IMG/VR virus record: IMGVR_UViG_3300023174_000747 | Location: 1 to 20,623 of that record | DNA from: a virus | Reading direction: 5' to 3' (one strand) | Length of the DNA: 20,623 nt | Shown here: one piece after another, positions 2,031 to 2,710 of the stretch | Layout: the number at the start of each line of letters is the position of its first letter | How positions within the stretch are numbered: position 1 is the stretch's first letter | The notes under the pieces: generated by a model | What the model saw: the letters and a program-made list of their open reading frames with translations, nothing else | Databases searched by the model: none | Told to the model about the DNA's origin: nothing | Made by a program: the position numbers and the translations under genes

Positions 2031-2208
2031 AAGGTAGTTGGTTCCCGATGAGCCAATGGGACTGGGAATACTCGGTCGAAACCAAAATCGGAAAAATTGA
2101 TATTTGACATTTTATTTTAGTAGACCTGCCATGCCTCTGCTTGCAAAAAAGTAATTTCTGAAGTACAAAGAAATGAAAGCGAGATTATGCACACTTTGGC
2201 GGGTGTTC
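2031..2208 (+). ncRNA. Structured RNA, 5' segment leading into tRNA-Ala
   Basis: No credible ORF. Complementary segments suggest folding: TTGGTT 2038-2043 with AACCAA 2080-2085, enclosing a CCC/GGG helix; ACCTGCC 2124-2130 with GGCGGGT 2198-2204 (7 bp, one G-U), ending 4 nt before the tRNA; and ATTTCT/AGAAAT inside the latter. It may be the 5' part of one large RNA that includes the tRNA and the segment to 2710. The identity is unknown; see the finding on the RNA island. Confidence 0.45.
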
Positions 2209-2281
2209 GGGGATATAGCTCAGTTGGTAGAGCGTCTGCTTTGCAAGCAGAATGTCAGGAGTTCGAATCTCCTTATCTCCA
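2209..2281 (+). tRNA. tRNA-Ala(TGC)
   Basis: A full 73-nt cloverleaf. Acceptor GGGGATA 2209-2215 pairs with TATCTCC 2274-2280 (one G-U), with discriminator A 2281. The D arm carries GCTCAGTTGGTAGAGC. The anticodon loop TTTGCAA 2240-2246 gives TGC at 2242-2244. The T arm is AGGAG-TTCGAAT-CTCCT (2257-2273). No CCA is encoded, unlike the tRNA-Tyr, tRNA-Glu and tmRNA genes downstream, so this one needs CCA addition. It sits between two structured segments and may be cut from a longer RNA. Confidence 0.95.
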
Positions 2282-2710
2282 GTATTTTACCAAGCGCAGA
2301 TGCCTTCGAAAGCTCTACCGCGATGGGCAACAATGCAATGTTTCCGGAAACAACATTTAACCCATAAGGAACTTCAGAAGAAGTCTTGGTAATAATTTTT
2401 GAACTGCGGCGTGGAAAAGCAGACACGCTACATTGAAGGGTAGATATGGCGTTGATGGATGGTATTGCAATAATCATCTATCAAATGCACCGATAGCGCA
2501 CATTGAGGTGCGATTGAAACCATAAACTGGAGTAGCGACCAGTCAGTTCAAATATAATTTGATAAGTCGGATGGGAATGGTGTGCTGTGCTGTTCTTAAA
2601 AAGCTAACCATTGCGGACTTATCACCAGACCCGATTAGGCAGGGGGTAACAAGTATCTTCGTCCAACGTGAGAAAAACACGGTAGCCAATGAAGACCTTT
2701 CTGGATCGAT
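2282..2710 (+). ncRNA. Large unidentified structured RNA between tRNA-Ala and tmRNA
   Basis: About 430 nt with no gene, noticeably richer in G and C than the flanking genes. Nested helices can be read directly: TTACCAAG 2287-2294 with CTTGGTAA 2385-2392, enclosing AATGTT/AACATT (2337-2342/2352-2357); TTTGAACTG 2398-2406 with CAGTTCAAA 2544-2552, enclosing GCGTG/CACGC (2409-2413/2424-2428), a 10-bp helix 2452-2461/2475-2484, CGCAC/GTGCG (2497-2501/2508-2512) and CTGG/CCAG (2527-2530/2539-2542); and TGATAAGTC 2560-2568 with GACTTATCA 2616-2624, enclosing AATGGT/ACCATT (2576-2581/2607-2612). A last domain may close by CCAGA/TCTGG (2625-2629/2700-2704). A tRNA-linked, large, ornate phage RNA recalls the GOLLD and ROOL classes, but no class could be confirmed. 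Confidence 0.6.

Follow-up and report, generated by a model that had tools for sequence, protein, structure and literature searches.

A modular array of small structured RNAs in a phage tRNA island includes an orphan abiF-type RNA

What kind of RNA occupies a gene-free interval at the head of a phage tRNA island? The question is raised by positions 2031–2710 of a 20.6-kb virus fragment from IMG/VR (the window, by which we mean the whole stretch of DNA analysed), where the original prediction proposed one large structured RNA built around tRNA-Ala, either a divergent GOLLD or ROOL RNA or a new class. We found that this stretch is an array of separate small structured RNAs, not one large RNA. 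One of these, module C, is identified through comparison with sister phages as a probable member of the abiF RNA family with an enlarged loop, and the toxin gene of that family was present in no phage record examined. Phages may thus use their tRNA clusters to carry RNA antidotes against bacterial defences.

Composition and structure of the array

The upstream coding sequence ends at 1983, the phage transfer-messenger RNA (tmRNA) begins at 2725, and no credible gene lies in the interval. Between 2031 and 2724 there are only short, overlapping open reading frames of 57–85 amino acids, which agrees with the claim that the stretch is non-coding. The strong promoter claimed just upstream was recovered, and its TTGACA/TATATAGT elements are kept 5′ of module A in many homologues. 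The elements of the array are as follows.

1996–2024, + strand: sigma-70-type promoter of the array (TTGACA-17-TATAGT, 11 of 12 matches)
2034–2095, + strand: module A, H-type pseudoknot in which the CCGAT loop of a TTGG/CCAA hairpin pairs with ATCGG, built around the variable hairpin P2
2096–2117, + strand: AU-rich linker carrying the recurring motif TTGATNTTTKANAWTT
2118–2207, + strand: module C, abiF RNA with enlarged loop (abiF core 2125–2204)
2209–2281, + strand: tRNA-Ala (TGC), between modules C and D in the window phage only
2287–2392, + strand: module D, closed multi-hairpin RNA
2398–2552, + strand: module E1, closed RNA of ~155 nt, window only
2560–2624, + strand: module F, long closing stem with covarying inner stems
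2625–2705, + strand: module G, junction RNA with a GGC/GCC pseudoknot, alone 5′ of the tmRNA in many relatives
2706–2724, + strand: AU-rich linker (GATCTTTGAAATTTTAT) of the same motif class

All five helices named in the original prediction are present, and four of them each close one domain in the series: 2124–2130/2198–2204 closes C, 2287–2294/2385–2392 closes D, 2398–2406/2544–2552 closes E1, and 2560–2568/2616–2624 closes F. The remaining helix, 2452–2461/2475–2484, is internal to E1. The description of successive closed domains with the tRNA between two of them is thus accurate, with tRNA-Ala between C and D.

We compared the array with about 45 related phage contigs, gathered through the neighbouring RNA ligase and through DNA patterns. 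Its units are separate, tRNA-sized structured RNAs (A, C, D, E1, F, and G) set apart by short AU-rich linkers, and the tmRNA comes after the last of them. Conservation in blastn and profile searches came in blocks with sharp borders, and A, C, D, F, and G recurred as units that are gained, lost, relocated, and exchanged at domain borders among relatives. The arrangements seen include A-C-D-E2-F-G-tmRNA, A-F-G, A-X1-F-G, A-tRNA-F-G, A-C-D-tRNA-tRNA-F-G-tmRNA, and G-tmRNA alone. In most sisters, E1 is replaced at the same place by the unrelated module E2. Module X1 follows A in some phages and G in others, and module B1 lies after A or 3′ of the tmRNA. Contig 3300044716_001642 carries A-B1-C-D-E2 near one end and G-tmRNA elsewhere. 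The tRNA at the C/D site is itself an optional item, and the bases that flank it in the window lie side by side, or at most a few nucleotides apart, in contigs L004, L006, L007, L010, L014, L019, and L028. Because excision of the tRNA alone would part them, the modules probably act as separate RNAs. We counted the linker motif TTGATNTTTKANAWTT 27 times in 26 kb of array sequence and not once in 447 kb outside the arrays; it may mark a site of processing or recombination.

Folding energy was unremarkable, both for the whole stretch (z = −1.2, not significant) and for most single modules (z from +0.2 to −3.1; E1, −1.8; F, −3.1), and the structural case therefore rests on comparison. Compensatory changes were scored as double-change cells against column-shuffled and slid controls; shuffles ignore relatedness, slid controls allow for kinship, and both agree, although the structures had been drawn from these same sequences. 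Compensatory base changes support modules A, C, D, F, and G as well as X1 of related phages, and for C, D, F, G, and X1 they lie far above both kinds of control. The 24 homologues of module A contain 14 distinct P2 stems and three versions of P1, including GAGG/CCTC and GTGG/CCAT, while the loop and 3′ strand that form the pseudoknot are invariant. Double-change cells numbered 4 in the stem of C (0.8 shuffled), 10 in D (19 homologues; 4.3 shuffled), 9 in F (2.6 shuffled), and 17 in X1 including its pseudoknot (4.4 shuffled). Module G (34 sequences) changed on both sides in 11 of 23 pairs and gave 66 such cells against 19.0 ± 3.9 shuffled and at most 7 when slid. No diverged homologue of E1 was found among the relatives, and this module is hence without comparative support.

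At the gathering cut-off, Rfam placed only tRNA and tmRNA above threshold in the window, and the models for GOLLD, ROOL, group I/II introns, and RNase P gave zero matches at E ≤ 10. The expectation that no known family spans the stretch was borne out, though the single domain C does have a known family. At least six RNA families match nothing in Rfam: A, D, F, and G from the window, together with X1 and B1 from its relatives. When the window array and the tRNA-free sister array of L010 were compared with INPHARED phages by blastn, only tRNAs matched, or nothing. A GTDB scan with a module G pattern returned 32 stretches that were judged chance matches, since the profile failed to extend. The module G model found nothing in 20 phage records carrying an orphan abiF RNA.

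Several relatives depart from the window in single modules. In L057 (4960–5110) and L080 (12550–12700, − strand), the P2 hairpin of module A encloses an extra structured element, and the outer stem sequences match. A more distantly related phage lineage (L085, L092, and L100) has a homologue of module G directly after a tRNA and none of the other modules. X1 (~70 nt, pseudoknotted) is nearly unchanged in about 35 contigs of other phages (L139–L174) and often stands alone near terminase, capsid, and helicase-like genes; it had no blastn match among phages or plasmids. We rejected a link between X1 and an adjacent toxin gene, as the neighbours of lone X1 copies resemble, by eye, terminase, capsid, helicase, and endonuclease genes.

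Module C and orphan abiF RNAs

The abiF RNA family (RF03085, gathering cut-off 37 bits) includes RCd22 of the Clostridioides difficile prophage phi027. The alignments of module C share with this family a 6-bp closing stem with an unpaired A, an inner 3-bp stem, and the GCCUCU and GC-CA strands. They differ from it in the loop, which spans ~50 nt in the window module against ~10 nt usually, and to which we attribute its low score. Thirteen further C modules in sister phages score 25–30 bits, and a short-loop homologue with matching flanks in L057 reaches 49.6 bits (E = 4.7e-8), above the cut-off. On the strength of these sister-phage scores and of the L057 homologue, we take C to be an abiF RNA whose loop is enlarged. 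It was this enlargement that made the identity of C unrecognisable from the window sequence at the outset.

Bacterial abiF RNAs precede an Abi_2 toxin gene, whereas the phage RNA is an item in a tRNA/RNA array, its 3′ end in the window lying just 5′ of tRNA-Ala. Abi_2 (PF07751) was found in 0 of 41 records (the window and 40 sisters) and in 0 of 50 further phage records; among the records searched, these phages thus have only the RNA half of the pair. A second module of this kind occurs in the related array of L063, where it matches the DUF3800-VII RNA (RF02967; 58.5 bits), which is not in the window; no DUF3800 gene was found in the 40 records searched.

In bacterial controls, two of eight genomes tried had an abiF RNA scoring above the cut-off, in each case immediately 5′ of an Abi_2 gene (E ~1e-59). 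An abiF-type RNA was present at the gene start in seven of 26 Pseudomonadota Abi_2 genes, an eighth, distant match being discounted, against a background of two chance matches in 466 kb. A search of 198 Bacteroidota genomes gave one match under stricter filters and is not usable as a rate. Four Pseudomonadota Abi_2 genes (L311, L316, L320, and L321) have a common variant upstream RNA, CCCGCCTCGCCTCTC-CTGAAGCGCATTTTTGGCGGG, and form a set useful for cross-neutralisation comparison.

Orphan abiF RNAs extend well beyond this phage. A strict abiF pattern occurs in at least 120 viral contigs, and the matches listed include 98 non-redundant orphan RNAs with an intact stem. Of these 98, 41 have a tRNA on the same strand no more than 15 nt away (random mean 7.1, maximum 16 in 2000 draws), and 39 are directly 5′ of a tRNA, mostly tRNA-Arg. 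Their stems vary in a compensatory manner, and many score above the Rfam cut-off beside tRNAs. The isolated cyanophage S-CREM1 has the same layout, tRNA-Asn - abiF - tRNA-Gly, within a cluster of the order wcaG - tRNAs - manA - tRNA-Asn - abiF - tRNA-Gly (PMC9964418). Like the window, this cluster interleaves an orphan abiF RNA and structured RNAs with tRNAs; it differs in its companions, manA and wcaG, which are annotated as cis-regulatory. We found no antitoxin-mimic role proposed for the abiF RNA in the S-CREM1 article (PMC9964418). As these manA and wcaG RNAs lie between tRNAs beside the abiF RNA (L175, 1246–2144), they may belong to the array instead of serving as mRNA leaders.

The abiF family and this one phage example were already known. 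In the open-licence papers searched, we found no description of the modular arrays, of the new RNA families, or of the broad association between orphan abiF RNAs and tRNAs.

Possible roles of the array

Two precedents bear on function. The abiF RNA RCd22 of C. difficile binds AbiF directly and neutralises the toxin in cis and in trans (PMC12373285). Phage PhiTE escaped the ToxIN system by making a pseudo-ToxI RNA, a mimic of the host type III RNA antitoxin (reviewed in PMC5086642); that case concerns a different toxin family and escape mutants obtained under selection, and the abiF RNA of the window is instead a stable, widespread component of such islands. The best reading of the array, and in our judgement a probable one, is an anti-defence cassette of the RNA-antitoxin type, carried in the tRNA island of the phage. 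Transcription from the promoter at 1996–2024 would produce the leader of a tRNA/tmRNA operon, and the transcript, with at least six small structured RNAs, would be separated at the AU-rich linkers and tRNA ends. Module C would be freed like a tRNA and, by analogy with a cognate RNA antitoxin, could then bind host AbiF (Abi_2, a HEPN-type ribonuclease) in trans. Soaked up or silenced by the orphan abiF RNA, AbiF would be prevented from causing abortive infection. Some of the other modules may be decoys for further RNA-controlled host systems, and the two RNA ligases, the tRNAs, the tmRNA, and the RNA decoys may together form a kit against host defences that cleave RNA.

Several points weigh against the cassette. 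The transcript, its processing, and AbiF binding are all predictions. The window module C scores 24.1 bits, below the RF03085 cut-off, and its enlarged loop might alter or abolish AbiF binding. The presence of Abi_2 in the host is presumed, and the phage records are mostly fragments, so that an Abi_2 gene could lie farther off. Modules A, D, E1, F, and G are without known relatives, and the module G model matched nothing in 398 Pseudomonadota genomes, so that host counterparts of these modules are presumed as well. Only two modules of the whole set match toxin- or protein-associated RNA families. A wider claim is a tentative one, with the odds somewhat against it: the islands would be interchangeable arsenals of RNA antitoxins and decoys, and every module (A, B1, C, D, E, F, G, and X1) would counteract its own RNA-controlled toxin or defence of the host, the majority of these still undescribed.

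Other explanations account for parts of the evidence. In T4, RNA C and RNA D sit in the tRNA cluster, and the modules could likewise be stable small RNAs that aid phage translation or RNA metabolism, C being a reused abiF-like fold. Their tRNA-like size and their position among tRNAs and the tmRNA fit such a role, and RNA C and RNA D are late RNAs of unknown function (PMC9697503), small and structured, although blastn of the sister array L010 detected no similarity to them. A role of this kind would not need the loop, stem, flanking letters, and compensatory stems of a toxin-associated RNA, and we regard it as rather unlikely. We give considerably less credence to the proposal that the modules serve the tRNA operon in its processing or as part of its leader (RNase signals, 5′ protection, or antitermination) and have no function once cleaved. 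Module A is often first past the promoter, and orphan abiF RNAs stand directly 5′ of tRNAs, as such elements would; equivalent positions, however, hold different modules, G and X1 occur without adjoining tRNAs, and the tRNAs that adjoin abiF RNAs vary, though tRNA-Arg dominates.

The least probable explanation, which we rejected, is the single large ornate RNA of the GOLLD or ROOL type with the tRNA in a linker. The original prediction was right that the stretch is structured and that its setting resembles that of GOLLD and ROOL, which also lie near phage tRNA islands and sometimes hold a tRNA inside, as in the GOLLD linker (PMC12286853). The tandem closed domains of the stretch, near tRNAs, speak for this explanation too. 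The notion of one large RNA fails, since the domains are shuffled, dispensable, and movable, occurring alone or far apart, and the inter-domain tRNAs would be excised. GOLLD and ROOL are each a single RNA of constant architecture (in GOLLD with a conserved 3′ region), whereas the window array is modular and has no sequence or structure match to them.

The antitoxin cassette gains interest from its abiF member, which offers a testable role, RNA antitoxin mimicry as a stable phage counter-defence. The same orphan RNA occurs in about a hundred other phage contigs among the matches listed, often abutting a tRNA. For part of the content of phage tRNA clusters, this provides an alternative to codon usage. 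Matching each module to a host gene would be a route to RNA-controlled toxins and, if the arsenal proposal is true, the array would be a catalogue of undescribed RNA-gated bacterial defences.

Neighbouring genes and the tmRNA

The array is flanked by the following elements.

128–1141, + strand: RNA ligase gene upstream of the island (PHROG 968, E = 1e-55)
2725–3136, + strand: phage tmRNA (RF00023, 99.1 bits, E = 5.5e-38, model positions 1–374, a full-model match)
3142–3229, + strand: tRNA-Tyr (GTA)
3237–3311, + strand: tRNA-Glu (CTC)

A second, different RNA ligase is encoded at 8221–9309 (PHROG 562, RNA ligase / tail fiber attachment, T4 Rnl1 type). The tmRNA, whose 5′ end is 20 nt past module G, was absent from the original prediction; ARAGORN missed it and its homologues, and the Rfam match is clear. 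Among relatives, the 5′ end of the tmRNA differs (GGGGGTGAAAGGATTCGACA, GGGGGTGTACTGGTTTCGAT, and others) while the body is almost constant, a pattern that would fit a swap of the tRNA-like part.
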